Positions 3,045-41,042 of a stretch of 44,508 bases of DNA are shown here, one piece after another; position 1 is the stretch's first letter; every line of letters begins with the position of its first letter. Origin of the DNA: Candidatus Symbiothrix sp. Its GTDB lineage: Bacteria > Bacteroidota > Bacteroidia > Bacteroidales > Azobacteroidaceae. Under the pieces are notes generated by a model that was not told the DNA's origin, made no database searches, and worked only from the letters and a program-made list of their open reading frames with translations. Where the stretch lies: positions 1-44,508 of the forward strand of contig JAISKT010000027.1 of NCBI GenBank assembly GCA_031261295.1, given 5' to 3'. Position numbers and translations under genes: made by a program.

Positions 3045-3072
3045 GTAGGGCGACCCTTGCGGTCGCCCTGAT
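3045..3072. repeat. 28-nt palindromic element, intergenic copy 1 (likely terminator)
   Basis: The arms AGGGCGACC and GGTCGCCCT form a perfect 9-bp stem around loop CTTGC, starting 10 nt after the SusD stop codon. It belongs to the GTAGRGRCG palindrome family seen at most gene ends between 3 and 29.6 kb. A T-rich stretch follows about 15 nt later, so it may act as a terminator or 3' stabiliser (inference). Confidence 0.75.
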
Positions 3073-4693: not shown

Positions 4694-4705
4694 ATCCGTA
4701 ATTGC

Positions 4706-4733
4706 GTAGGGGCGAATAATTATTTGCCCCTAT
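4706..4733. repeat. 28-nt palindromic element, intergenic copy 2 (likely terminator)
   Basis: The arms GTAGGGGCGAATAA and TTATTTGCCCCTAT form a near-perfect palindrome, starting 13 nt after a stop codon and followed by a run of seven T, so a rho-independent terminator is plausible. Same 28-nt length and arm pattern as the copies inside the metalloprotease genes. Confidence 0.8.
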
Positions 4734-4757
4734 CATTTTTTTATTAACTATCTTAAA

Positions 4758-4776
4758 AAACACAAATTTAAATTCC
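4758..4776 (+). promoter_or_regulatory. Shared AT-rich leader directly before a start codon
   Basis: The leader AAACACAAATTTAAATTCC runs directly into the ATG at 4777. Nearly the same string occurs at 10760-10777 before the phosphatase gene, and a shorter version (AACACAATTTAAATTTT, from 22519) precedes the 446-aa GLUG gene. There is no Shine-Dalgarno sequence, as is usual in Bacteroidota. The function is unknown; an unstructured translation-enhancing leader is inferred. Confidence 0.5.
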
Positions 4777-10689: not shown

Positions 10690-10710
10690 AGCTTTCCAAA
10701 AGGACTCTCA

Positions 10711-10740
10711 ACAAATCCCTGCCGGAAGGTAGGGATTTGT
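10711..10740. terminator. Hairpin with GGAA tetraloop (rho-independent terminator-like)
   Basis: ACAAATCCCT pairs perfectly with AGGGATTTGT around GCC-GGAA-GGT, giving a 13-bp stem with a GGAA tetraloop, 21 nt after the stop of the giant GLUG gene and followed by T-rich sequence. A variant copy with pairing-preserving changes is at 14840-14869. Confidence 0.8.
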
Positions 10741-10759
10741 TTCTGCTATTTTTATTAAT

Positions 10760-10777
10760 AACACAAATTTAAATTCC
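10760..10777 (+). promoter_or_regulatory. Shared AT-rich leader upstream of the phosphatase gene
   Basis: AACACAAATTTAAATTCC lies 8 nt before the ATG at 10786 and is identical to 18 nt of the leader at 4759-4776. Confidence 0.5.
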
Positions 10778-10785
10778 TATTTTAC

Positions 10786-14803: not shown

Positions 14804-14833
14804 GTATGGGGCGACCGCAAGGCTCGCCCCTGC
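14804..14833. repeat. Palindromic element, intergenic copy 3
   Basis: The arms GGGGCGACC and GG(C)TCGCCCC pair around loop GCAA with one bulged C, starting 17 nt after the phosphatase stop. It is a 30-nt member of the same family as the copies at 3045 and 4706, and it lies immediately before a second terminator-like hairpin. Confidence 0.7.
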
Positions 14834-14919: not shown

Positions 14920-17790
14920 ATGAAAAAAACATTTTTAATAACACTACTCATAGCGTGTGCATTGCAAATGCAGGCGCAGTTTTTAATTGGATCGCCCGAT
15001 AGTAGAGACGTGGCGCGCCACGTCTCTACCGAAGAATGGGCTGCGGCAAAAGCGGTACATGGCGATATGTTTGTGCGTGCAGGAATTGTAGTACTGAACC
15101 GTGCCGATATCAATGATCAACGTATTCAAACCGCTTTACGTACACAAGATTTGCTTTCTATTCAACTATTTGATGATGTATCTGTTACAGCAAAGAAAAC
15201 CAATGTTCGCACCACCGGATCCGGTGGAATTTATTGGACGGGAACCATCGTCGAGACGCAATTTATTGCGTCTATACCGAACGGCGAATTAACGCTATTT
15301 ATGAAAAACAATTATTTAGCCGGAACTTTGCGGCAGGGGGATCAAGTGTTTGACATCACATCCGATGAAAACGGCAATCTCAAAGTCGTAGAATTGGATC
15401 AAAATAATAATCCTGCACCTAATGAAGATTGCTATTTCCACGAAGAAGTAGAGACGGCCACGTCTCTACAACAATCAACATCCGGATTACGGGCAGCAAC
15501 CGCTGATCCATCTACCGATGCAGAGGGGCATTACATCATTGATATTTTAGTTCTTTATCCAACTGCTACTGCTACACTAATGGGAGCGAATGCGGAGGCG
15601 CGAACAACAAAAGCGATGGCAATACTTGAAGAAGCCAACGAATGTTTTGAAAACAGCCACATGAATCTGCGCTTTCGTTTAGCACACGACGAAATCAATA
15701 ATGATATTGCGGCCAATGCTACATCAGCAGATGCTGTCAGATTATCTTCTATCACCGCTATGCGAAATGATTATGGCGCCGACATCGTGACTCACTGGAA
15801 TAGTAGCGGAAGCGATGGCACAGCATTTGTGTATGGTGGAAATGCCGGTCAAAGTGGTTACAATACCAGCAAATACAGCGAAGTTATTTCCCGTTATACC
15901 TTTGTCCACGAAGCCGGACACAATCTGGGTGGACGCCACGACCGTTATGAATACCGAGATCAGACATCCTACTTGACAAATAATCCCGGTGATAATTTTG
16001 GAAAATGTTTCCTTACCTATCGCACGATTATGGCCTATGATAATAGCAAACAATTACCCGGAGCGGCAAACGTGGGAAGAAGCAGGATCAAAGCTTTCTC
16101 CAACCCTGATGTTTCCTATAATCCGGACAGTAAGATTTTTGGCACCGGCAGTGCGAATGGATTTGTTCCAACCGGGATTGCAATAACATCAGAGACTCCA
16201 ATATCTGCTATTATCGATGGAGGTCCTGCTAATAATGCGCGATACATGAGTGCAAACGCATCGGCAGTTTCCGCAGTCAATAATCCAATCACAACTCAAC
16301 CTACATTCACATTGAAAGTGACTGATGGAACACCGGCAACAGTAGTTGTAACAGCCGGTACATCCGTTGAAATTACAGCCAATGCCGCACCGGAAGGACA
16401 AGTATTTGCAGGCTGGGTCAGTGGCGACAGAGGAAGTATTGCCGGAATACTGGATGACCCAACCAAATCAACGACAAATGTCAATATGTTGTCAAAAGAT
16501 CTATGGGTGAAGGCAACTTACATCGTAGCAGAACCCGGAACTGAAACAAAACCTTTCCCGGTTGCCAATAGAGCCGATCTGGAAAAAATCAAAGACGATT
16601 TATCATCTTATTATATACTAACTGATGACATAGACTTAGCCGGTAGCGATTGGACTCCCATCGCAGGAATTTTTACGGGTACGCTGTGGGGAGAGGGTCA
16701 TGCCATTAAAAATATCTCCATTAATACTTCTGTCGCTAAAGTTGGACTTTTTGCCGATTTAGGTAATGGCGCATTCATTGAAGGTGTAAACATCGTGGGC
16801 GGAAATATTACTTCTTCTGCAGCGGGCGCACAAGTAGGCGCTATTGCCGGATATATTAGTAATGCGAATGTCATTATTACAAAATGTAGTAATACAGCAA
16901 CTATTACAGCCACCGGCGCTACGGCTCAAGTAGGTGGTCTCGTGGGTAGTATCAAAGGCGCTTTTGCCACTATTTCTTCCAGCTTCAATAAAGGGAACGT
17001 TACGGGAGGACAATATGTCGGAGGGATTGTCGGTCGTGGAGCTGACGGGCAAAATACCGTTACGATTAGCAACTGTTATAGTCAGGCAACCGTATCTTCT
17101 GCTGTGGCTTCTGCGTATGTGGCCGGAATAGCCGGATATCTGTATAGTGGTCGGGGTATTTATACTGTGGAAAATTGCTATGCCACAGGAAGTGTTGAGA
17201 ATACCGGCAATGGTTCGGCCGTAGGAATAGTGGGTCGCGCGTGGGATAACGCCGGCACGATTATTCAACACAATGTAGCTTTACAAGACAATCTTACCGG
17301 TAGCGATGCCAATACGGTAGCCATTTTGGGAAGTGAAGTAAATACGGGAACGAAAGAAAATTATTCCAATGCCGCCATGCTTTTAAATGGTGTCGCAAAA
17401 ACCGATGAAAGCGCGAAAAACGGTACAGCAGTTTCTCTTAACGACGCTAAAACGGTAGCATTCTATACGACTGCTCCTTTGGCTTGGGATTTTACCGATA
17501 CATGGACAATCACAGACGGATCTTTCCCTTATTTCCAATGGGAAAAGGCTGGCAACGTAGGGATTGAGTTACCCAAAGTTGTCAACCCGTTGAAAGCCTC
17601 TGCTTCCAATGGTATTTTGACAGTGAAAGGGCTGGTTGCCGGCGAATTCGTTCGCGTATATACCCTGCTCGGACAAACGGTTTCCAGCTGGACAGCCACC
17701 AGTACGGAAAAAACCATTTCTTTGCCTGCTTCCGGAATCTATATCGTTGCCGCAGGCAATAAAGCCGTGAAAGTGTTGGCAGAAAAATAA
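14920..17790 (+). CDS. Secreted metzincin (M12/reprolysin-like) metalloprotease with GLUG repeats, protease 1
   Basis: A 956-aa protein with a signal peptide ending in MQAQ (about residue 22) and a pro-region to about residue 200. The catalytic domain (about 202-440) has the zinc motif HEAGHNLGGRHD (H330, E331, H334, H340) and Met-turn residue M371 in TIMAYDN, which define a metzincin. A divergent InlB-type beta repeat (about 465-545, 'GQVFAGWVSG...LWVKATY') and GLUG repeats (about 545-870) follow. The C-terminal tail (885-956, ending GIYIVAAGNKAVKVLAEK) is T9SS-like. The pro-region contains three in-frame palindromes (15002, 15250, 15448). It has its own -7 box and a hairpin 7 nt after its stop. 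It is closely similar to protease 3 in the pro-region and to protease 2 throughout. It is expected to act at the cell surface or outside the cell on proteins. Confidence 0.93.
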   Translation: MKKTFLITLLIACALQMQAQFLIGSPDSRDVARHVSTEEWAAAKAVHGDMFVRAGIVVLNRADINDQRIQTALRTQDLLSIQLFDDVSVTAKKTNVRTTGSGGIYWTGTIVETQFIASIPNGELTLFMKNNYLAGTLRQGDQVFDITSDENGNLKVVELDQNNNPAPNEDCYFHEEVETATSLQQSTSGLRAATADPSTDAEGHYIIDILVLYPTATATLMGANAEARTTKAMAILEEANECFENSHMNLRFRLAHDEINNDIAANATSADAVRLSSITAMRNDYGADIVTHWNSSGSDGTAFVYGGNAGQSGYNTSKYSEVISRYTFVHEAGHNLGGRHDRYEYRDQTSYLTNNPGDNFGKCFLTYRTIMAYDNSKQLPGAANVGRSRIKAFSNPDVSYNPDSKIFGTGSANGFVPTGIAITSETPISAIIDGGPANNARYMSANASAVSAVNNPITTQPTFTLKVTDGTPATVVVTAGTSVEITANAAPEGQVFAGWVSGDRGSIAGILDDPTKSTTNVNMLSKDLWVKATYIVAEPGTETKPFPVANRADLEKIKDDLSSYYILTDDIDLAGSDWTPIAGIFTGTLWGEGHAIKNISINTSVAKVGLFADLGNGAFIEGVNIVGGNITSSAAGAQVGAIAGYISNANVIITKCSNTATITATGATAQVGGLVGSIKGAFATISSSFNKGNVTGGQYVGGIVGRGADGQNTVTISNCYSQATVSSAVASAYVAGIAGYLYSGRGIYTVENCYATGSVENTGNGSAVGIVGRAWDNAGTIIQHNVALQDNLTGSDANTVAILGSEVNTGTKENYSNAAMLLNGVAKTDESAKNGTAVSLNDAKTVAFYTTAPLAWDFTDTWTITDGSFPYFQWEKAGNVGIELPKVVNPLKASASNGILTVKGLVAGEFVRVYTLLGQTVSSWTATSTEKTISLPASGIYIVAAGNKAVKVLAEK
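15002..15029. repeat. In-frame palindromic element, site A, protease 1
   Basis: A perfect 28-nt palindrome: GTAGAGACGTGGCG followed by its exact reverse complement, inside the coding sequence at codons 28-37. It is read in the frame that gives S-RDVARHV-ST. The same site is filled in proteases 2 (24050) and 3 (26885). Confidence 0.85.
15250..15277. repeat. In-frame palindromic element, site B, protease 1
   Basis: The arms GTCGAGACGCAATT and TATTGCGTCTATAC span 28 nt with few mismatches. It is read as VETQFIASI at about codons 111-119. The site is empty in protease 2, whose gene is 27 nt shorter here. Confidence 0.8.
15448..15469. repeat. In-frame palindromic element, site C, protease 1 (short form)
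   Basis: GTAGAGACG-GCCA-CGTCTCTAC: perfect 9-nt arms with a 4-nt centre (22 nt), read as VETATSL at about codons 177-183. The equivalent in protease 3 is the full 28 nt, so the centre here has lost 6 nt (two codons). Confidence 0.8.
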
Positions 17791-17796
17791 AAAACC

Positions 17797-17824
17797 GTAA
17801 GGGCGAATCCTTATTCGCCCTTGC
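17797..17824. repeat. 28-nt palindromic element, intergenic copy 4
   Basis: The arms GTAAGGGCGAAT and ATTCGCCCTTGC surround CCTT, starting 7 nt after the protease 1 stop. It separates protease 1 from the second SusCD pair. No T run follows directly. Confidence 0.75.
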
Positions 17825-17876
17825 CGGAAAAGTTAAATTTTATACTATTTGAAATTTTAAATTATAACGTAAGTTT

Positions 17877-20800
17877 ATGAAGAAACTATGCATTTTTTTA
17901 TTTTGCCTGTTTTTAGGCATAGGATGGGTTTCAGCTCAAACTACGAAGGTAACAGGAACAGTTACTTACGCAGATGACGGAGAGCCTATTATTGGAGCGT
18001 CTGTACTTGTAAAAGGTACAAAAATTGCCGCTGTTACGGATATTGACGGTAAGTTCGCACTGGATGTACCCGGTGACGCAAAGACGCTTTTCATTACGTA
18101 TCTGGGAATGATTTCCCGTGAAATAGCCGTAGCGCCTATGGTCAATGTAGCGATGAAAACGGACAATCAGCTCCTTGACGAAGTAGTGGTGACAGGATAT
18201 GGTACTACGAAAAAATCGGTTTATTCGGGTGCTGCCTCTGTGATTGACGCAAAAAAATTGGCGGATATACCGGCTATGTCGATGAATGCCATGTTGCAAG
18301 GGAATGCTTCCGGTGTAATGGTCACTTCGGGTACCAACCAACCGGGTGCAGTGGCTGACGTGCGCATCCGTGGTATGGGTTCTATCAATGCAAGCAAAAG
18401 TCCGCTCTATGTAATAGATGGTGTGCCGGTAATGTCCGGTGATATTGGCGTAACTTTCGATAATGCTCCGGGATTTGACGTTATGAGTACATTGAGTACT
18501 TCGGATATTGAAAACATTACCGTGATCAAGGACGCTGCCGCTGCTGCTTTGTATGGTTCTCGTGCCGCTAATGGGGTAATTGTGATTACAACCAAATCCG
18601 GTAAAAAAGGAAAGACCGTATTTAATGTAAAAGCAGATATGGGATTCTCTGATTTTGCTATGCCTTATCGTACCATGATGAGCGGACAAGAACGTCGTGA
18701 TAAACAAATCGAAGGCTATCGTAATTATTGGGATGCAACCGGTGGCGTTTTCTCAGGTTCAACAAATTATACGGATGTAGATGATTATATTACTCAAAAT
18801 ATTAATGGCACAGCCCCAATTCCCTGGATGGGCTATTTTGAAGATTGGGACAAAGTATTATTCAAAACAGGATCTTACAGCAATTATGAAGCATCCGCTT
18901 CAGGAGGGAATGAAACCATGCGTACCTACGCTTCGTTAGGCTATGCAAATCAAGAAGGTTCCACCATAAATTCCGGTTTGGAACGTATCTCCGGTAAATT
19001 CAATTTGGATTGGGATGCTACTAAGAAAATGACCGTTGGAATTAAATCCTTGGTGTCGCAAGTGGAGCAAGATGTCTTCTCGGAAGGACAGGCCTATACT
19101 TCGCCTTTCTATTCTTCTCGCAGAGCGGTGACTCCTTCCGATCCTGTTTACAATGAAGACGGTACTTGGAACACCTCTATTATTGGTAGTGCTGCTACTC
19201 GTAATCCGAAATTGGCTCAAACCTATAATACAAAAACACAAAAAGTGATCCGTGCCAATAATGTGCTGTACGCGCAATATGCGATTTTGCCCGAATTAAA
19301 ATACAAGGCCTCTTTTAGTTATGATTTCAACTACAGTAGAACTGATTCTTGGACGGATCCGCGCACTTCGGATGGAGCCTCTAAAAATGGGGTAAAGAGT
19401 GTGTATATCTATGATTATAATAAATGGCAACTGTCTAATTCTGCTTCCTATGTAAAAACATTTGCAGAAAAACATAATTTGGATGCTCTTGTGGCATTTG
19501 AGGTGGAAGACTACTACCGCGATTATCTTTATGGTTCGCAGTCAGGCTTTCTTGATCCCGAACTAAACGCCATTGCCAATGGAGAATTGAAGGAGGGCAT
19601 TTCGGGTAGTCCGAATGGATGGCGCATGGTATCTTTGGTCTCACGTGCTAATTATGACTATATGGGAAAATACTATGCGGGCGTTTCTTTCCGTTATGAC
19701 GGTTCTTCTAAATTGTCGAAAACAGACAACAAAAATTGGGCTCCCTTTTGGTCTGTTTCCGGTTCTTGGCGTGTAACCGAGGAAGATTTTATGGAAGATT
19801 ATAAACAGACCCTTTCCGATTTGCGTATCAGAGCTTCTTATGGTACCAGTGGTACTTTGCCGTCCGATTTATACGGTTTTTATGGTTTGAGTAGCTTGAG
19901 TGCCGACTATAAATATATGAACAAAGGAGGTATCGCTTCTTCTCAGGTGGCAAACACTAATTTGACTTGGGAAAAGAATGCCGCTTTTAATCTTGGCTTG
20001 GATGTTCAGTTGTTTAAGCGGGTCAATGTATCGTTAGAATATTACAATCGTGTAACGAAAGATTTGTTATATCCTTTCCCTATTTCTTATACCACCGGAT
20101 ACAGCACTTACTTCCGTAATATCGGACAGTTGCAAAATCGTGGTTTTGAAGTGGATATTAACTCTACTAACATTACTACGAAAGATTTCACTTGGAGCAC
20201 CCGTTTGAATTTGGGTCAAAACCGCAATAAAGTTTTGAAATTGGACGGTGATATTACCGAATTGGTGAGCGGACATTTTATTCATAAAATAGGTGCCAAT
20301 TACTATACTTTCTATTTGGTTGAATTTGCAGGGATAGACCCCGAAGATGGAGAACCGATGTTTGTGAAAAACAAAAAAGTAACGGATGAAAATGGAAATG
20401 TAACGATAGATAAGAGTACGACTAAAACATACAGTGAAGCCTCTCGAACTGAACATAAAGGACTTGAACCTACATTATCCGGTGGTTTGACGAATACTTT
20501 GTCTTACAAAATGTTCGATTTGAGTTTTCAGGTAAACTTTAATTACGGTGGTTATAGTTATGATGATGCGGCACAAAAAGTAGAACATGGGGGAGCAGAT
20601 ATGAGAACGACTATTCCGGTATATTATGCCGACAGTTGGAAAAAACCGGGAGATAAGACAGATATTGAACGTTTTATATACGGTCGTCCGAATGCCATGA
20701 GTGGTTACACCACTACCCGTCGTATGCACTCTACCGATTATGTGCGTTTGCAAAACTTGACTTTTGGTGTGAATGCTCCGAAAACATGGTTGAAACATAC

Positions 20801-20960
20801 CGGTTTGTCTAACGTGCGTTTATATACCTCCGGAACCAACTTGTTGACTTGGGCAAAATTCGACTGGTACGATCCGACAGGTTTGGAACAAGATGGTAAT
20901 TCCGATTGGTCGCAACCACCTTTGAAGACTTGGACATTTGGTATTGATATTAAATTTTAA
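17877..20960 (+). CDS. SusC/RagA-type TonB-linked outer membrane receptor (complete)
   Basis: A 1027-aa protein with a signal peptide (to about residue 20, GWVSAQ), a carboxypeptidase-like regulatory domain (about 24-95, 'VTGTVTYADDGEPIIGASVLVKGT'), and the TonB-box-like segment LDEVVVTGYG. The plug domain carries the SusC-type motifs 'VRIRGMGSINASKSPLYVIDGVP' and 'IENITVIKDAAAAALYGSRAANGVIVITTKSGK'. The rest is a 22-strand barrel ending GIDIKF. By family it imports oligomers across the outer membrane using TonB energy. It is followed after 34 nt by its SusD partner. It is the full-length counterpart of the truncated receptor at the left edge and probably arose with it by module duplication. 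No associated anti-sigma or hybrid regulator was seen in the window. Confidence 0.97.
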   Translation: MKKLCIFLFCLFLGIGWVSAQTTKVTGTVTYADDGEPIIGASVLVKGTKIAAVTDIDGKFALDVPGDAKTLFITYLGMISREIAVAPMVNVAMKTDNQLLDEVVVTGYGTTKKSVYSGAASVIDAKKLADIPAMSMNAMLQGNASGVMVTSGTNQPGAVADVRIRGMGSINASKSPLYVIDGVPVMSGDIGVTFDNAPGFDVMSTLSTSDIENITVIKDAAAAALYGSRAANGVIVITTKSGKKGKTVFNVKADMGFSDFAMPYRTMMSGQERRDKQIEGYRNYWDATGGVFSGSTNYTDVDDYITQNINGTAPIPWMGYFEDWDKVLFKTGSYSNYEASASGGNETMRTYASLGYANQEGSTINSGLERISGKFNLDWDATKKMTVGIKSLVSQVEQDVFSEGQAYTSPFYSSRRAVTPSDPVYNEDGTWNTSIIGSAATRNPKLAQTYNTKTQKVIRANNVLYAQYAILPELKYKASFSYDFNYSRTDSWTDPRTSDGASKNGVKSVYIYDYNKWQLSNSASYVKTFAEKHNLDALVAFEVEDYYRDYLYGSQSGFLDPELNAIANGELKEGISGSPNGWRMVSLVSRANYDYMGKYYAGVSFRYDGSSKLSKTDNKNWAPFWSVSGSWRVTEEDFMEDYKQTLSDLRIRASYGTSGTLPSDLYGFYGLSSLSADYKYMNKGGIASSQVANTNLTWEKNAAFNLGLDVQLFKRVNVSLEYYNRVTKDLLYPFPISYTTGYSTYFRNIGQLQNRGFEVDINSTNITTKDFTWSTRLNLGQNRNKVLKLDGDITELVSGHFIHKIGANYYTFYLVEFAGIDPEDGEPMFVKNKKVTDENGNVTIDKSTTKTYSEASRTEHKGLEPTLSGGLTNTLSYKMFDLSFQVNFNYGGYSYDDAAQKVEHGGADMRTTIPVYYADSWKKPGDKTDIERFIYGRPNAMSGYTTTRRMHSTDYVRLQNLTFGVNAPKTWLKHTGLSNVRLYTSGTNLLTWAKFDWYDPTGLEQDGNSDWSQPPLKTWTFGIDIKF

Positions 20961-20994
20961 TGGCTGAAAAAATAATTATATAATAAAGATTTTC

Positions 20995-22476
20995 ATGAAA
21001 AAATATATAAATATAGTTTTGTCCTGCTTTATTTTGTTGTTAGCAACGGCTTGCAACGATTATCTGGACTTAAAACCTTCTACATCTGTAATAGATGAGG
21101 GAGTGAGTATGAAATCGCTGACGGATGTCAATGCGCGTTTGAATGGCGTTTACAGCCAAATGCGTACTTTTGAGTATTATGGCGCACGTATGACCTATTA
21201 TGGAGATGTGTGTGGTGATGATATGCAATCTGTAGCTACCGGCAAACGAACAACGGATTTTTATCAGTTTACCTTCAACAAAACAAATGCACCCAGCAAT
21301 TTTTGGAGTAAATGTTATTCCATTATTAAAAATGCGAATATTATTTTAGCGGGTATAGATCTCGTTCCTACAACTACGGATGCAGAGAAAGCAACATTGG
21401 CGGACTACAAAGGGCAGGCTTTAACCCTGCGTGCGTTAGCTCATTTTGATTTGACCCGTCTATACGGTTATCCGTATGCGAAAGACCATGGCGCATCTTA
21501 TGGGGTGCCCATTATTGACACTCCCGTAGAAGCGTATTACGTTCCCTCACGTAACACAGTAGCTGAATGTTATGCCTTTGTTATCAAGGATTTGGATGAT
21601 GCTTCAAAATTGATGAAAGGAACGAAAAACAATGGCCATTTTACCAAATGGGCTACGTTGTCTTTGTTGAGCCGTGCTTATCTTTACAGAGGAGACGATG
21701 CTCTGGGAGATAATACCAATGCTTTACAAACAGCCAAAGAGGCTATTGCCGGTGCAGAATCTAATGGCGTAAAATTATGGACAGCCGCAGAATATAAAAC
21801 GGCTTGGGCAGCTGAATTTAGCGGTGAAGTGTTGTTTGAATTACCGGTAATAACAGGTGAAGGTCCAGGTAATGATGGAATTGCTTATCTCGTGGCTCCC
21901 AGAGGATACGACGACCTTGTAATCAGTGATGATTGGATCGTAAAATTAATGGGTGATCAAAAAACGGATATACGTTACACTTGCATGATCAAAACCCCGC
22001 TTCCAACCAGTAAAGCCGGTACCCGCTATGTGTGGAAATATCCGGTGCAACCGGATGAAAGTGCAGATGCACTCAATCTGGGTAATATCAAGGTACTTCG
22101 TTTGTCTGAAACTTATTTGATTGCAGCAGAAGCGGCAGCAAAATTGGGCGCAAATGACGATGCGGTGAAATATCTGAATGCAATATCTACACGTGGTTTG
22201 GCTGCTAATAACTTTACAGGTAAGACCGTTACGCTGGATGATGTATTGACGGAACGTCGCAAAGAGTTGATCGGTGAAGGACATCGTTTCTTTGATGCCA
22301 TTCGTAATCACAAACACATAGTGCGTTCTAAAGACAATAAATACGCACATTTGGTCGGCATTGATCCGGGCGCATGGGATTTCGATTGGGACTATTTCAA
22401 AGTAGTATTGGCTGTGCCTGTACACGAAACCGATTTGGCAGGTATAGTATCGGAACAACAAAACCCCGGTTATTGA
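20995..22476 (+). CDS. SusD/RagB family surface lipoprotein
   Basis: A 493-aa protein with lipobox ATAC (Cys20) followed by NDYLDLKPS, the classic SusD N-terminus. Internal signatures include 'LADYKGQALTLRALAHFDLTRLYGYPY', 'KWATLSLLSRAYLYRGD', 'LSETYLIAAEAAAKLG' and 'ERRKELIGEGHRFFDAIRN', all characteristic of the SusD TPR-like fold and its C-terminal region. It is 34 nt downstream of the SusC gene and forms its lid lipoprotein. A palindromic hairpin starts 8 nt after the stop, so the SusC-SusD unit probably ends here. The protein is shorter than the SusD of the first module (578 aa) and not closely similar to it, so the two uptake systems may differ in ligand (inference). Confidence 0.96.
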   Translation: MKKYINIVLSCFILLLATACNDYLDLKPSTSVIDEGVSMKSLTDVNARLNGVYSQMRTFEYYGARMTYYGDVCGDDMQSVATGKRTTDFYQFTFNKTNAPSNFWSKCYSIIKNANIILAGIDLVPTTTDAEKATLADYKGQALTLRALAHFDLTRLYGYPYAKDHGASYGVPIIDTPVEAYYVPSRNTVAECYAFVIKDLDDASKLMKGTKNNGHFTKWATLSLLSRAYLYRGDDALGDNTNALQTAKEAIAGAESNGVKLWTAAEYKTAWAAEFSGEVLFELPVITGEGPGNDGIAYLVAPRGYDDLVISDDWIVKLMGDQKTDIRYTCMIKTPLPTSKAGTRYVWKYPVQPDESADALNLGNIKVLRLSETYLIAAEAAAKLGANDDAVKYLNAISTRGLAANNFTGKTVTLDDVLTERRKELIGEGHRFFDAIRNHKHIVRSKDNKYAHLVGIDPGAWDFDWDYFKVVLAVPVHETDLAGIVSEQQNPGY

Positions 22477-22483
22477 AAATTCA

Positions 22484-22511
22484 TCAGGGCGCACGGGTGT
22501 GTGCGCCCTGA
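22484..22511. repeat. 28-nt palindromic element, intergenic copy 5
   Basis: The arms TCAGGGCGCAC and GTGCGCCCTGA form a perfect 11-bp stem around GGGTGT, starting 8 nt after the SusD stop. Likely 3' end structure or terminator. Confidence 0.75.
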
Positions 22512-22518
22512 ATATATA

Positions 22519-22541
22519 AACACAATTTAAATTTTATTTTT
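22519..22541 (+). promoter_or_regulatory. AT-rich leader, third version
   Basis: AACACAATTTAAATTTT followed by a T-rich stretch precedes the ATG at 22542. It is a one-base-shorter relative of the leaders at 4758 and 10760. Confidence 0.4.
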
Positions 22542-23882
22542 ATGAAAAAGATTACTCTTATTTTGGCAGCATTCGCGCTGTTGTTCTCTGCGCAAACAAT
22601 GAGCGCTCAATTTTCGGGTGGTAACGGAACGGAAGCTAATCCGTATTTAATCTCAACGAAAGCTGATTTGGAAGCTATTGGTAACTCAGCTTTCTTGGAA
22701 GCAGGTACAGCAGGTTTGTATTTTGAACAAACAGCTGATATTGATTTAGGTGGCGAGGCTACACCTTGGGAACCCATATCACACTTTAGTGACAGTTCTT
22801 TTAAAGGAACTTATAATGGAAATGGAAAGAAAATTACCAATATTTACATCAATACTACCGGCGCTTCGGACGGTCAACAGGAATATTTCGGACTTTTTGG
22901 TGTAGTAGGTGTCGGTGCAGTTATTCAAGATGTACATATTGTAGGCGGATCAATTACCGTAACAGAAAACGGAGGAAGTGTTTACGCTGCCGGCGTTGTA
23001 GGACGTGTGAATGGTAATGATGTTTGGATACTTAATTGTAGCAATAGTGCAAATGTTACTTCAACTGCCAACTCCGGAGCTGCCGGAGGTATTGTCGGTC
23101 GTATTGATGGCGATGGAGGCATTGTTTTTTCAAGTTACAATACAGGTAATGTTTCTTCCGGACAATATACCGGTGGTATTGTTGGTCGTGGCTATGCAGG
23201 GTCTGCTACCATTCAAGATTGCTACAGTGTAGGAAATATTTCTTCTACAGGTTCGGATTCTCCTTATGCAGGTGGAATCGCCGGATATGTTTATACCAGC
23301 GGCACATCTACTGCTCCTTCTTTCTATACCGTGGAAAAGTGCTATGCAGCAGGTACGGTTGCTTGTCCTGCAGGAACAGCAGCAGGCATTGTTGGTCGTG
23401 CAACAAATGACGCTCAAGTAATCGTTCTTCACAATGTGGCTTTACAAACTTCATTGGATGGTAAAGGCAAAGGCATTATTGGCGGTAACGTAAACACTGG
23501 AACTACTGACAATTATTCTATCTCTACTATCCTTATAGATGGAGCGGCTAAGTCTGCTACAACCGCAGCGCATGGTTTGGATGTAACTCCGGAAGATGCA
23601 AAAACAAAGTTGTTCTACGAAACTATCCTGGATTGGGATTTTACCGATGACTGGACGATCGTAGAAGGTGTTTCTTATCCTACATTGCAAGCAAATCCTG
23701 TTATATCAGCCGGTACCGGCATCAACCGGGTGAATGTTGAAAACGGAGCAATTGTAGCTCAAAAATACTACAACTTGCAAGGCATAGAAGTATCAGCAAG
23801 CGCTACCGGTGTGATTATCGTAAAAAATATCCATGCTTCAGGCGCTGTTTCTTCTACTAAAGAATTGAAATTAGCAAAATAA
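22542..23882 (+). CDS. Secreted GLUG-repeat protein with C-terminal sorting-type tail
   Basis: A 446-aa protein. The signal peptide (MKKITLILAAFALLFSAQ, cleaved near MSAQ) is nearly the same as in the 523-aa protein at 3122. The mature N-terminus 'FSGGNGTEANPYLISTKADLEAIG...FEQTADIDLGG' leads into GLUG repeats (AAGVVGRVNG, AAGGIVGRIDG, YTGGIVGRG, YAGGIAGYV, AAGIVGRAT), with NCYS/KCYAAGTV strands between them. The C-terminus (VENGAIVAQKYYNLQGIEV...VIIVKNIHASGAVSSTKELKLAK) is of the second tail type, shared with the 1970-aa protein and protease 3 rather than with the 523-aa protein. Its place after SusCD mirrors that of the 523-aa protein in the first module. A non-enzymatic surface binding role is inferred. 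Confidence 0.87.
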   Translation: MKKITLILAAFALLFSAQTMSAQFSGGNGTEANPYLISTKADLEAIGNSAFLEAGTAGLYFEQTADIDLGGEATPWEPISHFSDSSFKGTYNGNGKKITNIYINTTGASDGQQEYFGLFGVVGVGAVIQDVHIVGGSITVTENGGSVYAAGVVGRVNGNDVWILNCSNSANVTSTANSGAAGGIVGRIDGDGGIVFSSYNTGNVSSGQYTGGIVGRGYAGSATIQDCYSVGNISSTGSDSPYAGGIAGYVYTSGTSTAPSFYTVEKCYAAGTVACPAGTAAGIVGRATNDAQVIVLHNVALQTSLDGKGKGIIGGNVNTGTTDNYSISTILIDGAAKSATTAAHGLDVTPEDAKTKLFYETILDWDFTDDWTIVEGVSYPTLQANPVISAGTGINRVNVENGAIVAQKYYNLQGIEVSASATGVIIVKNIHASGAVSSTKELKLAK

Positions 23883-23885
23883 ATC

Positions 23886-23944
23886 GTAGGGGCGCACCTG
23901 CGTGTGCGCCCTCCTATCGGGCGAACACATAGTTCGCCCCTATA
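23886..23944. repeat. Two tandem palindromic elements (intergenic copies 6 and 7)
   Basis: Hairpin 1 has arms GGGCGCAC and GTGCGCCC around CTGCGT, beginning 4 nt after the GLUG gene stop. Hairpin 2 (23917-23944) has arms GGGCGAAC and GTTCGCCC around ACATA and ends 5 nt before the ATG of protease 2. The second hairpin would therefore sit in the ribosome-binding region of that gene. Confidence 0.75.
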
Positions 23945-23949
23945 ATATT

Positions 23950-26796
23950 ATGAAAAAGACATTATTCTTAATAACATTAACACTTGCGTGCGCCTGGCAA
24001 ATGCAGGCACAGTTTTTGATTGGTTCTCCCGCAAAAACGCAATTACGGAGTACGGATGCGGCATGCCTCGTCTCTACGGAATGGGCAGATGCAAAAGCCG
24101 TTCACGGCGATATGTTCGTGCGCGCAGGTGTAGTGGAATTAAATCGCACCAATGTTAATGATCCAAGTATTCAAAACGCTTTATTGACCCGGGATTTGCT
24201 GACTATCCAACTATTTGCTGATGTAACTGTTACGGCAAATAAAACCGGTGTGCGCACCACGACATCCGGAGGCATTTATTGGACAGGAAATGTATCGAAC
24301 GGTGAATTAACATTGTTTATGCAAAACAATTGTTTGTCGGGAACCTTACGCCAAGGAAATCAAGTATTTGACATTACATCCGATGAAACCGGCAATGTGA
24401 AAGTGGTGGAATTGAACACGGAAAAAAATCCAATGCCGGCTGAAGATTGCTTTTTTAATGAGGATGATACCGTAGGGACGAATGGCATTCACCCGGACGA
24501 AACGGTTGCCCAATCCGAATGGCGGGCAGCTGCCGATTTTCCAACTCCATCTACCGATGTGGATGGCAATTATATAGTAGATATTTTAGTGCTTTACCCG
24601 AATGAAGTGGCCGCATTGATGGGAGCAACTCCGGAATTGCGCACGGCTAAAGTGGATTATTATATTGAGCAAGCCAACGAAATTTTCATCAACAGCCGGA
24701 TTAACGTCCGGTTTCGTTTAGCGCACGACGAAATTAATAATGCTATTCCTAAAGGGGCGACTACTACTTCAGAAGTAAGTGGAACACCGAGGGTTACCGC
24801 ATTGCGTGACTTGTATGGTGCGGATATTATCTCTCATTGGAATTTCAATGGCGCTGCCGGAATAGGATCTGTTTTTTCCGGCACCGGAAGAAGCGCTATG
24901 TATAATAGCAGTAAATACAGCGATGTAATCTCCCGCTATACTTTTGTTCATGAATGTGGACACAATATGGGAGGACAACACGATCGCTACGAATACTCCA
25001 AACCGGGAGGAGAGCAGAAACACTTAACACAAGCGCCCGGAGATAATTTTGGAAAATCTTTCCCCGGATATCATACTATTATGTCGTATGGTAACGATCC
25101 GACTATATCCGGCGGTAGTAGTACCCGGGTGAAATACTTCTCAAATCCGGATGTTATATTCAATGGACAGCCGACCGGAATTGCATTAATTCCCGGCGCT
25201 CCCTTAACTGCAGAAGGCAATGGAGGACCCGCCGATAATGCAAGATACATTAATATAGAATCACAATATGTTTCAGCATATAATGATCCGATTACAACGA
25301 TTCCAAGTTTTAACGTAACCGTTATTAACGGACAATCCAATATCTCGAATGCGGTAGCGAATACAGTTATTGAACTTACGGCCGATACACCTCAGGAAGG
25401 GCAAGTTTTTTCGCATTGGCTTGGTGGTAATGGTGTCTTTGGAGATCCCGATCAAGCGAATACAACGTATGTTATGGCATCTGAAAATGTAACACTCACA
25501 GCCATTTTCAAAATACCATCGACTGAAGAAAATCCGTGGCTTATCGCCAACAGAGCTGATTTGGAAAAAATCATTGATTTTCCGGGCGAAATATATAAAC
25601 TGACTGCCGACATTGATATGGCCGGTAAAACGTGGACGCCGATTCCCTCTTTTTCAGGTAAACTATATGGCGAAGGACACAAACTGAACAACGCCACAAT
25701 TGCATCAAGCGCCAATTATGTCGGATTGTTTGCCGAATTGGCTACCGGCGCCTATGTCAAAGGAGTCAACATGGTAGGCGGAAACGTGATCGCCACTTCG
25801 GCGGGTGCATACGTGGGTGCGATTACAGGATATATCAGCGGAGACAATGTGACAATTACAGAATGTGGTAATACTGCAAATATTAGAGGAACAGGAGCTA
25901 CGGCACGTGTAGGTGGTCTCGTGGGTAGTATTAAAGGAAATTTTGCCACCATTACTTCCAGTTTTAATAAAGGGAATGTTACCGGCGGGCTTTATGCCGG
26001 AGGTATTGTCGGGCGTCCGGCTGATGCACAAAATACTGTTACTATTCGCGATTGTTATAGTCAATCAACAATAACGACTTCAATAACTACTACCTCTTCT
26101 TCTTATCTGGGAGGAATAGTGGGGTATATGTATAATGGCGGTAGTGGTCAATATACTGTGGAGAATTGCTACGCAACAGGAACTGTTGTGAACGCTGCTT
26201 CTGCCATAGGATCAGCAGTCGGAATTGTTGGTCGTGCATGGAATAGTTCCAACTCAATCGTCCAACACAACGTGGCATTACAAACCAACCTTCAAGGTAG
26301 TACATCCAATACGGTAGCTATTTTGGGAAGTAACCTGTCTTCGGGTACGAAAGAAAACTTCTCTAATTCCGAAATGCTTTTGAATGGTGTGCAAATTACA
26401 TATCCGGATCCGATTAATGAAAAGAATGGAGCAGCAGTCACTTTAGTTGATGCTAAAACAGCAGCATGGTATGCTGCTAATCTGCCAAGTTGGAATTTTA
26501 CCAATACATGGGCAATTACTGACGGTAGTTTGCCGATTCTCAAATGGGAAACCACCGGTGATGTGGCTATCGAGTCACCCAAAGTTATCTACACATTGAG
26601 AGCATCTGCTTCCAACGGTATTTTGACAGTGAAAGGCCTGGTTACAGGCGAATCGGTTCGCGTATATACGGTAACGGGACAAACTGTTGCAAATCAGATG
26701 GCAAAGAATTCGGAACAAACCATTCAATTACCTGCTTATGGCGTATATATCGTTGTCGCTGGGAATAAAGCTGTGAAAGTTTTTGCAGGAAAATAA
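23950..26796 (+). CDS. Secreted metzincin (M12/reprolysin-like) metalloprotease with GLUG repeats, protease 2
   Basis: 948 aa from the ATG at 23950. This start is chosen because MKKTLFLITLTLACAWQMQAQ is a proper signal peptide like those of proteases 1 and 3; an in-frame ATG at 23902 would add 16 residues encoded by the palindromic repeat and is unlikely. It has a pro-region to about 200 and a catalytic domain with HECGHNMGGQHD (H334, E335, H338, H344) and Met-turn TIMSYGND. An InlB-type repeat (GQVFSHWLGG...ENVTLTAIFK), GLUG repeats and a tail ending GVYIVVAGNKAVKVFAGK follow. It carries palindromes at sites A (24050, decayed left arm) and C (24472, decayed right arm) but none at site B. The stop is 6 nt before the protease 3 start, so the two are co-transcribed. 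Confidence 0.92.
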   Translation: MKKTLFLITLTLACAWQMQAQFLIGSPAKTQLRSTDAACLVSTEWADAKAVHGDMFVRAGVVELNRTNVNDPSIQNALLTRDLLTIQLFADVTVTANKTGVRTTTSGGIYWTGNVSNGELTLFMQNNCLSGTLRQGNQVFDITSDETGNVKVVELNTEKNPMPAEDCFFNEDDTVGTNGIHPDETVAQSEWRAAADFPTPSTDVDGNYIVDILVLYPNEVAALMGATPELRTAKVDYYIEQANEIFINSRINVRFRLAHDEINNAIPKGATTTSEVSGTPRVTALRDLYGADIISHWNFNGAAGIGSVFSGTGRSAMYNSSKYSDVISRYTFVHECGHNMGGQHDRYEYSKPGGEQKHLTQAPGDNFGKSFPGYHTIMSYGNDPTISGGSSTRVKYFSNPDVIFNGQPTGIALIPGAPLTAEGNGGPADNARYINIESQYVSAYNDPITTIPSFNVTVINGQSNISNAVANTVIELTADTPQEGQVFSHWLGGNGVFGDPDQANTTYVMASENVTLTAIFKIPSTEENPWLIANRADLEKIIDFPGEIYKLTADIDMAGKTWTPIPSFSGKLYGEGHKLNNATIASSANYVGLFAELATGAYVKGVNMVGGNVIATSAGAYVGAITGYISGDNVTITECGNTANIRGTGATARVGGLVGSIKGNFATITSSFNKGNVTGGLYAGGIVGRPADAQNTVTIRDCYSQSTITTSITTTSSSYLGGIVGYMYNGGSGQYTVENCYATGTVVNAASAIGSAVGIVGRAWNSSNSIVQHNVALQTNLQGSTSNTVAILGSNLSSGTKENFSNSEMLLNGVQITYPDPINEKNGAAVTLVDAKTAAWYAANLPSWNFTNTWAITDGSLPILKWETTGDVAIESPKVIYTLRASASNGILTVKGLVTGESVRVYTVTGQTVANQMAKNSEQTIQLPAYGVYIVVAGNKAVKVFAGK
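24050..24077. repeat. In-frame palindromic element, site A, protease 2 (decayed)
   Basis: GTACGGATG...CGTCTCTAC over 28 nt: the right arm matches the family exactly and the left arm has diverged. It is at the same codon position as 15002 and 26885. Confidence 0.65.
24472..24499. repeat. In-frame palindromic element, site C, protease 2 (decayed)
   Basis: The left arm GTAGGGACG is intact, with inner pairing AATGGCATT. The right arm (ACCCGGACG) is degenerate. It lies at the equivalent of site C in proteases 1 and 3. Confidence 0.5.
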
Positions 26797-26802
26797 AAAA
26801 TA

Positions 26803-29586
26803 ATGAAGAAAACACTTTTATTATTCACTCTGATAATTACGTATGCGTTGCAAATACAGGCGCAGTTTTTAATTGGCACGCCCGATAGAGACGTGGCGCG
26901 CCGCGTCTCTACTGAAGAATGGAGGGCAGCAAAAGCTGTACATGGCAATATGTTTGTGCGTGAAGGAATTGTAGCGTTGAATCGTGCCAATATCAATGAC
27001 CAAAGTATTCAAACCGCTTTGCTTACGGAAAATTTACTTTCCATCCAACTATTCGAGGATGTGACAGTTACCGCAAAGAAAACCAATGTTCGCACTACCG
27101 CATCCGGTGGAATTTATTGGACGGGAACCATCGTAGAAACGCAATTTATTGCATCTCTACCAAACGGCGAATTAACCCTGTTTATGAAAAACAATTATTT
27201 AGCCGGAACTTTGCGGCAGGGAGATCAAGTTTTCGACATCACTCCCGGTGCAAACGGTACTGTCAAAGTAGTGGAATTGGATCTTCTAAATAATCCGAAT
27301 CCCGATGAAGATTGCTATTTTCACGAAGAGGTAGAGACGCAGCATGCCATGTCTTTACCACAATCAACAGCCGAATTGCGCGCAGCAACAGCATCACCTA
27401 CAATGGATGAGGAAGGACATTACATTGTCGATATTTTAGTACTTTATCCGGCAGCCGTGGCAAGTCTATTGGGTTCTACAGCGGCAGAACGAACGGCATC
27501 CGTTGAGTATCGAATTGTTGAAGCCAATGAGATTTTTGAAAACAGTGAAATCAATGTACGTTTCCGCTTGGCGCATCATGAAATAAACGATATTGTTCCC
27601 GCCAATGCACCGAGCGCGGTAGATGTCCGAATAAAAAGTGTTACCGCATTGCGCGCCCAATACGGTGCGGACATTGCATCGCATTGGAATATGAACGGAT
27701 CAGCAGGAAGCGGATATGTATTGACAGACAATTCGAAGATAGAGGAGACAGGATACAACACCAGTAAATACAGCGATATCATTTCCCGCTTTACTTTTGT
27801 TCACGAATGCGGACACAATCTGGGTGCACTGCATGACCGGTATGATTACCGGGAGAGAACCGAATTAACAAATAGCAGGCCCTATTATCAATTTGGAAAA
27901 GTATTTCCAACTTATCGAACCATTATGGCATATACAAACTGTGTAACGGTAGGCGGAGAAAGCGGCTCGGCAAATTGTCCGCGTATCAAGCATTTCTCTA
28001 ATCCGAATGTTTTGTATAATGGCGTTCCAACCGGAGTGGAAGGTACAGAACCCTCCTCATTGATTGACGGAGGCCCGGCGGATAATGCCAGACAAATCAA
28101 CAGACTGGCGGAAAAAGCTTCGAGCTGCAACAATCCGGTGACAGTCACGCCTCCACCGACGGAAGAGACGATCCCAATCTCCACCCGGGCGGAATTGGAA
28201 AGCATTAAAGACAATCTTTCCGGTAGATTTCAACTGACACAAGATATTGACTTGAGTGAGGGGGGCGATTGGATACCCATAGCAGGTGTCTTTACCGGTA
28301 AGTTATATGGTGATAATCATTCGATTAAAAATATTTCAATTAATAGCGATGCTGCTAAGGCCGGACTTTTTGAAGAATTGGGCGCCAAAGCATTCATTGA
28401 AGGCGTAAACATAGTCGGCGGTAGTATTATTTCTTTAGCAGCAAACGCACAAGTGGGAGGCATTGCCGGATACATCAGTGGTGCAGAGGCGACGGTTACA
28501 AAGTGTAGCAATAGTGCATCCATTCGTGCAACCGGCGCTACGGCACAAGCCGGTGGTATTGTGGGTAGCATTGAAGGAAAATTTGCTGCTATTACGTCTA
28601 ATTTCAATAAAGGCGCTATTACAGGGGGTATCTATGCGGGAGGGATTGTTGGCCGTGCGGCTGATGAGCAACTGACCGTTACTATTCGCAATTGCTATAG
28701 CCAAGCGACAATATCCTCTGCGGTAGAGTCTTCGTACGTAGCCGGAATCGTTGGGTACATGTATAATGTCCCTATTGACGGTTATTATACGGTGGAAAAT
28801 TGTTATGCGACCGGAAGTGTCGTGAATACAGGCAATGGCACTGCAGCAGGTATCGTTGGCCGTGTCTGGGATAGCGCCAATACGATGATTCAACACAACG
28901 TGGCATTGCAGGACCTGCTTACGGGTAATCCATCCAATACTTTCCCCATTTTGGTAAGTGACATAAGCATTGGAACGAAAGAAAATTACTCCAATTCCGA
29001 AATGCTTTTGAATGGAGAACAAAATACAAATGAAACAGAGTGGACCGGTGCGGCAGTTACCCTTGCCGATGCTAAAACAAAAGTATTCTACACGACCGCT
29101 CCCCTCGCCTGGAATTTTACCGATACATGGACAATTGAAGAGGGAACTTTCCCGATTCTCAAATGGGAAGTTGTAATGGACCCCGTAGTAACAACCTATA
29201 CGGTTACTTTTGCAGTAGAAGATACAAATGGAATAGCAATTACGGATGCGGTAGTAACATTTGACGATATAGTTAATGCAGCCGGCAATTATGTATTTAC
29301 AGACATCGCGGCCGATACATACGATTATTTGGTAGCAAAAGAAGATTACGAAACAGTTTCAGGCAACGTAACTGTAACGGATGCGAATGTAACAGTACCT
29401 GTAACTTTAGCAGAACTCGTTAGTATTCAATCTGTAGATGCTGATGCTATTGTGGCTACTAAATATTACAACTTGCAAGGTGTAGAAGTAGTTCCGACAA
29501 CAACAGGTGTTTATATTGTAAAAAACACCCATGCTTCAGGCAAAATCAGCTCTTCTAAAGAACTGAAAGGGATTGCAGGAAAATAA
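26803..29586 (+). CDS. Secreted metzincin (M12/reprolysin-like) metalloprotease with GLUG repeats, protease 3
   Basis: A 927-aa protein starting 6 nt after protease 2. It has a signal peptide ending IQAQ, then a pro-region very similar to protease 1 (AQFLIGTPDRDVARRVSTEE). The catalytic motif is HECGHNLGALHD (H334, E335, H338, H344), with Met-turn TIMAYTN. Unlike proteases 1 and 2 it lacks the InlB-type repeat and passes through a PPPTEET linker straight into GLUG repeats. It ends with one carboxypeptidase-regulatory-like repeat (from about residue 797, TYTVTFAVEDTNG) plus the YYNLQGVEV/NTHASG tail also found on the 1970-aa protein. It thus combines a protease front end like protease 1 with a back end like the giant protein, evidence of module exchange. 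Palindromes lie at sites A, B and C. Likely co-transcribed with protease 2. Confidence 0.92.
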   Translation: MKKTLLLFTLIITYALQIQAQFLIGTPDRDVARRVSTEEWRAAKAVHGNMFVREGIVALNRANINDQSIQTALLTENLLSIQLFEDVTVTAKKTNVRTTASGGIYWTGTIVETQFIASLPNGELTLFMKNNYLAGTLRQGDQVFDITPGANGTVKVVELDLLNNPNPDEDCYFHEEVETQHAMSLPQSTAELRAATASPTMDEEGHYIVDILVLYPAAVASLLGSTAAERTASVEYRIVEANEIFENSEINVRFRLAHHEINDIVPANAPSAVDVRIKSVTALRAQYGADIASHWNMNGSAGSGYVLTDNSKIEETGYNTSKYSDIISRFTFVHECGHNLGALHDRYDYRERTELTNSRPYYQFGKVFPTYRTIMAYTNCVTVGGESGSANCPRIKHFSNPNVLYNGVPTGVEGTEPSSLIDGGPADNARQINRLAEKASSCNNPVTVTPPPTEETIPISTRAELESIKDNLSGRFQLTQDIDLSEGGDWIPIAGVFTGKLYGDNHSIKNISINSDAAKAGLFEELGAKAFIEGVNIVGGSIISLAANAQVGGIAGYISGAEATVTKCSNSASIRATGATAQAGGIVGSIEGKFAAITSNFNKGAITGGIYAGGIVGRAADEQLTVTIRNCYSQATISSAVESSYVAGIVGYMYNVPIDGYYTVENCYATGSVVNTGNGTAAGIVGRVWDSANTMIQHNVALQDLLTGNPSNTFPILVSDISIGTKENYSNSEMLLNGEQNTNETEWTGAAVTLADAKTKVFYTTAPLAWNFTDTWTIEEGTFPILKWEVVMDPVVTTYTVTFAVEDTNGIAITDAVVTFDDIVNAAGNYVFTDIAADTYDYLVAKEDYETVSGNVTVTDANVTVPVTLAELVSIQSVDADAIVATKYYNLQGVEVVPTTTGVYIVKNTHASGKISSSKELKGIAGK
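26885..26912. repeat. In-frame palindromic element, site A, protease 3
   Basis: ATAGAGACGTGGCG then CGCCGCGTCTCTAC: 28 nt with two mismatches from perfect symmetry. It is read as RDVARRVST, in the same frame as site A in protease 1. Confidence 0.8.
27133..27160. repeat. In-frame palindromic element, site B, protease 3
   Basis: GTAGAAACGCAATT then TATTGCATCTCTAC, 28 nt, read as VETQFIASL. It is orthologous in position to 15250 and absent from protease 2. Confidence 0.8.
27331..27358. repeat. In-frame palindromic element, site C, protease 3
   Basis: GTAGAGACGCAGCA then TGCCATGTCTTTAC, 28 nt, read as VETQHAMSL. It is two codons longer than the copy in protease 1. Confidence 0.75.
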
Positions 29587-40761: not shown

Positions 40762-40791
40762 AAATATTTTTATTATCCATTTGATATTTAA
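40762..40791. repeat. 30-nt direct repeat, copy 2
   Basis: Identical over 30 nt to 36908-36937. Its last base coincides with the first base of the 252-bp MITE-like element, so the element abuts it exactly. Confidence 0.75.
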
Positions 40792-41042
40792 CCTGAGTTC
40801 CGGATAAGAAAACCTCATTTATACCTAATTTTCCGAACAGAACAACCTCAGTAGCAATAAGTTTACAGATACACGACACGAACCACATTACCTCATTAAA
40901 AGCAAGCGCAATTGAGGTAATGAGGTCTGGTTTGTGGGAGAATTATTTGCTACTGAGGTTGTTCTGTTCGGAAAATTAGGTATAAATGAGGTTTATTATT
41001 GAATATCAATTACTTATTCTTTTTCTTATCCGGAACTCAGGT
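40791..41042. mobile_element. MITE-like element, 252 bp, with nested inverted repeats
   Basis: Perfect 22-bp terminal inverted repeats begin ACCTGAGTTCCGGATAAG (40791-40812) and end CTTATCCGGAACTCAGGT (41021-41042). Immediately inside, 40812-40860 is repeated inverted at 40943-40992, identical except for one inserted A. A third inverted pair near the centre uses ATTACCTCA/TGAGGTAAT. CCTCA recurs at the start of several segments. The right side has an extra unpaired 28 nt. There is no reading frame for a transposase, so it is a non-autonomous element or a long structured hairpin. The insertion sequence family was not identified and no clear target duplication is visible. Confidence 0.8.

Follow-up and report, generated by a model that had tools for sequence, protein, structure and literature searches.

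A contig of 44,508 nt from Candidatus Symbiothrix sp., a member of the Bacteroidales (JAISKT010000027.1; this whole stretch is called the window below), contains three genes for reprolysin-type metalloproteases, proteases 1 to 3, in which copies of a short palindromic element are found at up to three sites, A to C (Table 1). The element, GTAGAGACG-N10-CGTCTCTAC, is 28 nt long; its arms are conserved, its borders are sharp, and its core is variable yet self-complementary. In many unrelated genes of this bacterium and its relatives, parts of seemingly normal enzymes are now encoded by such repeat DNA. The catalytic Pfam match of the three proteases begins at residue 208–249, varying with the protein and the model, and sites A to C therefore lie between the signal peptide and the catalytic domain.

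Palindromes in the protease genes

A preliminary description of the window had reported palindromes of 22–28 nt at all three sites of the three proteases. Recognisable copies are present in 7 of the 9 slots, one of them 22 nt long and one degenerate; site B of protease 2 lacks the element, with the protein nine residues shorter there, and site C of the same gene is no longer palindromic. As had also been noted, the protease copies are read through without a stop, and the copy at site A of protease 1 is exactly symmetric over its 28 nt. It is the sole perfect palindrome of at least 18 nt in the whole window, and 20 Markov shuffles of the window gave on average 0.35, 0.05 and 0.00 perfect palindromes of 18, 22 and 28 nt, respectively. 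In the fold of this copy 12 bases are paired on each side, GTAG included. At site C of protease 3 the copy forms a weak hairpin (z −1.26; 21 of 200 shuffles fold equally well), and the corresponding copy of protease 1 is 6 nt shorter.

The identity of proteases 2 and 3 to protease 1 is 62 and 69%. The proteases are paralogues that share their copies, and the eight intragenic copies counted at first therefore reduce to about three insertion events, inherited or lost. On contig C260 there is a fourth paralogue, whose site B copy is worn. Neighbouring large open reading frames (ORFs) at 3122–14787 and 22542–23882 share repeated segments with the proteases (GLUG, DUF6383, carboxypeptidase-regulatory-like), and the cluster of proteases and neighbouring ORFs has apparently expanded by duplication.

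Table 1. Protease genes of the window, their element copies and other short palindromes.
Feature	Position	Strand	Description	Basis
Protease 1	14920..17790	+	Reprolysin-type metalloprotease with C-terminal GLUG and DUF6383 parts	Pfam
Protease 1, site A	15002..15029		Perfect 28-nt palindrome, read SRDVARHVST (phase 1)	
Protease 1, site B	15250..15277		28-nt copy, 2 arm mismatches, read VETQFIASIP (phase 0)	
Protease 1, site C	15448..15469		22-nt copy, 9-nt arms and 4-nt core, read VETATSL	
Protease 2	23950..26796	+	Reprolysin-type metalloprotease, ATG start (GTG-start ORF from 23902)	Pfam
Protease 2, site A	24050..24077		Degenerate copy, 3 arm mismatches, read STDAACLVST	
Protease 2, site C	24472..24498		Remnant starting GTAGGGACG, palindrome lost, end approximate	
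Protease 3	26803..29586	+	Reprolysin-type metalloprotease	Pfam
Protease 3, site A	26885..26912		28-nt copy, 1 arm mismatch, read DRDVARRVST	
Protease 3, site B	27133..27160		28-nt copy, 2 arm mismatches, read VETQFIASLP	
Protease 3, site C	27331..27358		28-nt copy, 2 arm mismatches, weak hairpin, read VETQHAMSLP	
Other short palindromes	3048–3068, 14809–14829, 4710–4741, 17789–17820, about 23887–23912			

The unit and its distribution

In the genome of the window (4.15 Mb in 388 contigs) 57 places match the element with up to three mismatches, compared to one for a reversed-pattern control. This count, together with the insert-free relatives of several carrier genes described below, refutes the explanation that the symmetry arose by chance in conserved coding sequence of duplicated proteases; the protease copies are indeed not independent, the genes being paralogues, but we regard the probability of chance as negligible. 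Homologous proteases do not encode the same residues at these positions: those of genomes G023, G026 and G030 differ at site B, and those of G023 and G026 at site A. Of the family's 43 genomes, nine have protease matches, this genome among them. All nine are of one genus, and within that genus the comparison, which the preliminary description had named as a refuting test, did not refute insertion.

In order to define the borders of the unit, only the inner arms GAGACG and CGTCTC were required, which gave 105 cellular sites with 210 arm ends. The outer bases G, T and A are present in 199, 207 and 206 of these ends, while the base just outside the outer G is not conserved (T in 80 of 210), so that the unit is 28 nt. 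The 56 distinct cellular cores have a mean of 3.98 of 5 possible self-complementary pairs; the shuffle mean is 1.78 and the maximum of 2000 shuffles 2.30. For 48 cores from viral contigs the mean is 4.13 versus 1.93 after shuffling. These statistics ignore kinship among the cores, yet several pair types occur at each pair position. The symmetry of the core is thus maintained or renewed, rather than one fixed sequence being copied. Few half sites of the element were seen among the collected cellular loci (five distinct sequences are listed, two of which are the 22-nt copy), and as far as these loci go we set aside the view that the element is the end of a longer insertion sequence. In five viral loci there are ORFs between palindromes. 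In tandem arrays (L083 1459–1570; L345) the 28-mer alternates with a 14-nt spacer, giving a 42-nt unit.

On both strands the arms are free of stops in two of three phases, and the third brings in TAG. The encoded peptides are VETxxxxxSL in phase 0 or RDxxxxxVST in phase 1, and annotators may wish to consider that such stretches in proteins of Bacteroidota can be repeat-derived.

The element is widely distributed. At a tolerance of two mismatches it is matched in 35 of the 45 genomes of the family, and at a tolerance of one in 66 of 395 of the phylum (own genome included in both); control matches were confined to one genome in each case. Among named genomes, one exact variant of the 28-mer is present in 39 stretches whose titles all indicate Bacteroidia, including Candidatus Symbiothrix dinenymphae and Candidatus Azobacteroides sp. 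Of 12 copies of this variant in S. dinenymphae (G001), which belongs to the genus of the window, only 1 falls within an ORF of at least 200 aa; gene residence is therefore not a fixed property of the exact variant. The pattern is also held by 109 stretches of viral contigs, where 30 of 107 copies with distinct flanks lie in putative ORFs of at least 150 aa.

The preliminary description had proposed to count copies inside and outside ORFs over the whole genome. We inspected 52 of the 57 matched places; five were not inspected, and the 22-nt copy is outside the 52. In-frame copies within ORFs of 200 aa or longer account for 25 of the 52 places; phase 0 is used by 14 of them and phase 1 by 11. 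These 25 include six non-independent places in the window and one, C78:29991, that is probably upstream of the true start. Outside the contig of the window 19 of 46 places are in frame in such ORFs. They correspond to 18 carrier ORFs, 17 of which were scanned (C142 was left out), and 16 of the scanned proteins have a Pfam match. Comparison of the residue positions of the inserts with the Pfam ranges placed nine inserts inside a range, namely in GH92, LacZ, a second GH2 enzyme, AroB, GH94, IlvD, a P-type ATPase, a TonB receptor and DUF5074. Inserts in a fucosyltransferase and a sigma factor lie between domains, that of Cas1 is at a domain edge, and the remaining ones are outside domains. The protease copies had been described as all lying in the pro-region and none in the catalytic domain. 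This holds for the protease paralogues only; since nine inserts elsewhere are inside domain ranges, the rule is a property of these related proteases. A weaker form of the rule, that inserts occupy sites at which relatives vary in length, still stands.

A second population is intergenic. It comprises 19 copies with common outer flanks (of the GAGCGGTTGCATAAC ... ATCCGAATGCAACA type) and AT-centred cores, and ORFs of at least 200 aa contain none of the 19. GC-centred cores were found in 12 of the 19 in-ORF copies outside the window (one of the 12 is borderline) versus 1 of 27 others (p = 1.4e-5), a comparison that is not independent because 19 of the 27 others belong to one longer repeat.

Insert-free relatives and the origin of the inserts

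Several carrier genes have relatives that lack the element. In GH94 cellobiose phosphorylase, 10 of the 11 relatives that span the site lack exactly nine residues, so that the gene is 27 nt longer here; one insert-free relative is 95% identical. The eleventh (G023) has MNYRAS at the site, perhaps a worn copy, and the match of G028 does not extend across the site and is not among the 11. The nine residues are also missing from the solved cellobiose phosphorylase 3qde. For IlvD (30 of 37 matching genomes aligned) the insert is present in 4 of 30 genomes as a run of ten residues, at a position that in most of the other genomes holds three (+21 nt); in the carrier G030 the palindrome has decayed and the peptide is still recognisable. 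For AroB (30 of 32 aligned) the element lies in one loop in 3 of 30 genomes, with cores that are all different and all three perfectly palindromic, and the net length is +27 nt in two of the three carriers compared to most others. LacZ is longer by 27 nt here and by 9 nt in G007 compared to most relatives, with other values compared to distant ones. The P-type ATPase is 12 nt shorter than its three close relatives. GlpK has two carriers, and that of G023 is 9 nt longer than two insert-free orthologues; in the glycerol kinase gene of G008 (L393) the element stands beside an apparent partial second copy (GTAGGGACGCACGAT), and this stretch is four residues longer than in G023. Alignment with homologous proteases lacking the element, as had been suggested, gave +27 nt for site B compared to both protease 2 and G023, and +9, +21 and +6 nt for site A of proteases 1, 2 and 3 compared to G023. 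From these sequence comparisons we conclude that the element is inserted, and is not conserved coding sequence.

We put the probability at roughly 0.78 that a dispersed 28-bp element has inserted into protein-coding genes as well as intergenic DNA in this genus of Bacteroidales and in many other Bacteroidota, and that it persists where a change of length is tolerated. As 28 leaves a remainder of 1 on division by 3, a surviving copy within a gene must bring changes in its flanks. Present-day inserts both add to a loop and take the place of some of its sequence. The varied net lengths fit two routes: a hairpin was captured and native bases were lost in the process, or the frame was repaired after an insertion. 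Copies may spread as hairpins, by single-stranded or repair-templated copying. The insertion sites are probably surface loops in which the peptides would be tolerated, and after insertion the palindrome decays by mutation while the protein tends to keep the peptide. In the IlvD peptide the proportion of synonymous differences (pS) exceeds that of nonsynonymous differences (pN) in 5 of 6 pairs, and site B of the proteases has 4 synonymous versus 1 nonsynonymous change; each of these samples, like those mentioned below, has eight to ten codons.

A number of observations weigh against this interpretation. Residence in ORFs was judged from open frames and Pfam matches, not from expression. In the IlvD pair G000-G023 pS is 0.12 and pN 0.14, and site A of the proteases has no synonymous and 1 nonsynonymous change. 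The net length varies among carrier genes (+27, +21, +9, −12), and site C of protease 1 shows no gain compared to the C260 paralogue. IlvD is longer by 24 nt compared to G024, and +24 nt was also obtained for LacZ compared to the second LacZ-type gene of G044 and that of G006; differences of one codon are uncertain, because comparisons are few and most relatives are 50–90% identical. The IlvD carriers are scattered on the tree, and well-supported branches force at least four gains or losses. The four inserts have a common core type and common borders, so that recombination between species or losses fit as well as four insertions. The AroB tree needs three changes, only one of which is forced by well-supported branches. 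Neither a target duplication nor a common target was seen at the insert-free sites compared, none of which is near-identical. Since the net length is inconstant and no such target was found, simple transposition is not demonstrated. When flanks were matched over all collected loci in search of empty sites, the matches listed were for the most part further copies of the element or orthologue sets already compared, plus two non-coding viral candidates that are too diverged; among the 109 viral-contig stretches, all chosen for carrying the pattern, none of the listed matches was a close empty counterpart.

These lengths and junctions bear on two other explanations. A miniature inverted-repeat transposon with a target duplication of TA or GTAC would leave a net insert of 24 nt. 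Its attraction is that the element ends in GTA...TAC, that the insert-free forms of protease site B have GTAT and GTGC at the spot, and that +24 nt was found compared to a few single relatives. The nearest insert-free sites of GH94, IlvD and AroB are without GTAC, however, and the net lengths seen most often differ from +24, which makes this improbable. For these reasons the duplication of TA or GTAC, first suggested by site A of the proteases, is not supported. A better candidate, although still less likely than not to account for the inserts, is template switching or patch repair, in which a break takes up a hairpin-forming fragment and some native bases are lost. The net gains compared to the commonest insert-free form equal 28 minus 1, 7, 19 or 40, and other, unrelated hairpins occupy the same AroB and LacZ loops. 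Selection for frame together with later indels would, on the other hand, yield equal lengths, and the insert-free sites are too diverged for the joint to be seen.

The unrelated hairpins deserve description. In the AroB loop three genomes have other inverted repeats (G031, z −5.2; G023, z −3.1; G022, z −2.1), and G030 has a fourth insert without a hairpin (z −0.85). The LacZ loop of G011 and G023 contains an in-frame palindrome of the GTAGGGGCGACC family instead of the 28-mer, and genome MS499-82 has the 28-mer in LacZ at the same spot as G007. Copies at a GH2 junction, upstream of and near LWSNETPN or its equivalent, are present here and at two loci in relatives. In the TonB receptor of C294 the 28-mer is accompanied by an in-frame palindrome of another family; this second palindrome, TAAACCTGTTAAGTTTTGAAAACTTAACAGGTTTA (L031, C294:1966-2000), has similar copies outside long ORFs on other contigs. 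Various kinds of hairpin DNA seem to accumulate in loops that tolerate a change of length, as far as a few genes allow such a view. Tentatively, a fully self-complementary 28-bp element, among the smallest of mobile DNAs, might replace sequence as well as add it: the AroB, LacZ, GH2-junction and IlvD loops would have been repeatedly rewritten across species, those of AroB and LacZ also by unrelated palindromes, and hairpin capture would be a continuing source of new loop sequence in housekeeping enzymes. We hold this broader view to be possible rather than probable.

Other short palindrome families of the window (GGGCGACC..GGTCGCCC, GGGCGAAT..ATTCGCCC and GTAGGGGCGCACC..GTGCGCCC) lie at gene ends and between genes. 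Two perfect inverted-repeat pairs are found at 40791–41042, with 48-nt arms at 40810–40857/40947–40994 and 22-nt arms at 40791–40812/41021–41042. They are located upstream of a TonB-type outer-membrane gene (41368) and are perhaps an invertible segment or the remnant of a mobile element.

Comparison with known palindromic repeats

According to the available sections of PMC3733652, GTAG and CGTC repetitive extragenic palindromic sequences (REPs) are 20–40 bp long, form several families per genome and bear an unpaired GTAG or CGTC at one end. The 28-mer resembles GTAG REPs as a palindrome of 20–40 bp in many copies, and it starts with GTAG as they do. This raises the possibility that a REP-associated tyrosine transposase (RAYT) copies the element, which would then be a REP-like family straying into genes. 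The genome of the window has seven matches to Y1_Tnp, one of which (C261) has an intergenic-subtype copy about 145 bp away, and the number of copies shows a weak positive correlation with the number of RAYT genes (Spearman 0.29, p 0.06). We reject RAYT number as the explanation of copy number on account of this weakness; the densities of copies and RAYT genes correlate at 0.22 (p 0.15). Moreover, 9 of 43 genomes have 12–48 copies and no Y1_Tnp match at E 0.001, among them S. dinenymphae with 48 copies and 0 matches, although the genomes are incomplete and a RAYT may be lost or lie in the missing part. Five genomes have a RAYT match and yet at most three copies. In the 28-mer GTAG is paired with CTAC, and conservation at either end extends to the outer GTA and TAC, so that the single unpaired GTAG end of GTAG REPs is absent. 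Taken together, copying by a RAYT appears rather unlikely.

CGTC REPs have an unpaired CGTC end and a short unpaired tail, whereas the CGTC of the 28-mer is inside the stem and paired with GACG. The available part of PMC3733652 gives CGTC, not GTAG, repeats for Bacteroidetes; it also describes REPs in ORFs of known proteins, with intragenic examples from Opitutus terrae and Rickettsia conorii, and likewise suggests loops and linkers. In the accessible text of PMC6006769, TnpAREP proteins of subclass 2.6 mostly, and of subclass 2.4 often, occur in Bacteroidetes, and REP insertions within tnpAREP genes are known for subclass 2.4. A comparable case here is a GTAGGGGCGGGTTT palindrome, of a family other than the 28-mer, that lies in frame within a Y1_Tnp (RAYT-like) ORF (L057, C269:1671–1699). 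The 28-mer itself is not consistently adjacent to such genes.

With miniature inverted-repeat transposable elements the 28-mer has terminal inverted repeats in common, the whole unit being an inverted repeat. Duplicated target sites, typical of such elements, were not seen at the compared insert-free sites, and a parent with the same ends would be represented by the few half sites of the collected cellular loci. Small dispersed repeats of cyanobacteria, reportedly described by Elhai in 2008, are said to be very small mobile hairpins in varied contexts; the 28-mer resembles them as far as this description goes. Among the matches listed in the open literature, searched with the motif letters and by subject, there was no description of the 28-nt element; most subscription journals are outside this literature, and absence is not proven.

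The closest parallel is that with Rickettsia palindromic elements (RPEs) and the protein-coding palindromes of Wolbachia, which are palindromic repeats in frame within conserved protein genes; one RPE-bearing enzyme was demonstrated to be translated and active (PMC2229807, PMC3733652, available sections). The parallel with RPEs had been drawn in the preliminary description, and in-frame insertion and the insert-free orthologues of carrier genes other than the proteases bear it out; on the whole its observation was largely right and its interpretation half right. The RPEs described in the available part of PMC2229807 are 105–146 bp long, and PMC3733652, in its available part, treats the short RPE-4 and RPE-6 as CGTC REPs. 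The 28-mer shares with RPEs its residence in frame in conserved protein genes and differs in its length of 28 bp, its fixed arms, its covarying core and its occurrence in Bacteroidota, as judged from descriptions of RPEs, not from their sequences. A dispersed element with 28-nt borders and a covarying core, which resides in frame within domains and is missing from relatives of its carriers, is best read as a protein-coding palindrome like those of Rickettsia, in a variant new in Bacteroidota. Two questions become testable with it, namely how tiny elements move, and whether repeat-coded peptides are tolerated or made part of the enzyme. Earlier descriptions of protein-coding palindromes concern Rickettsia and Wolbachia as well as some genomes rich in REPs (PMC2229807, PMC3733652); the present element occurs in ordinary metabolic enzymes of Bacteroidales, with insert-free relatives for comparison.

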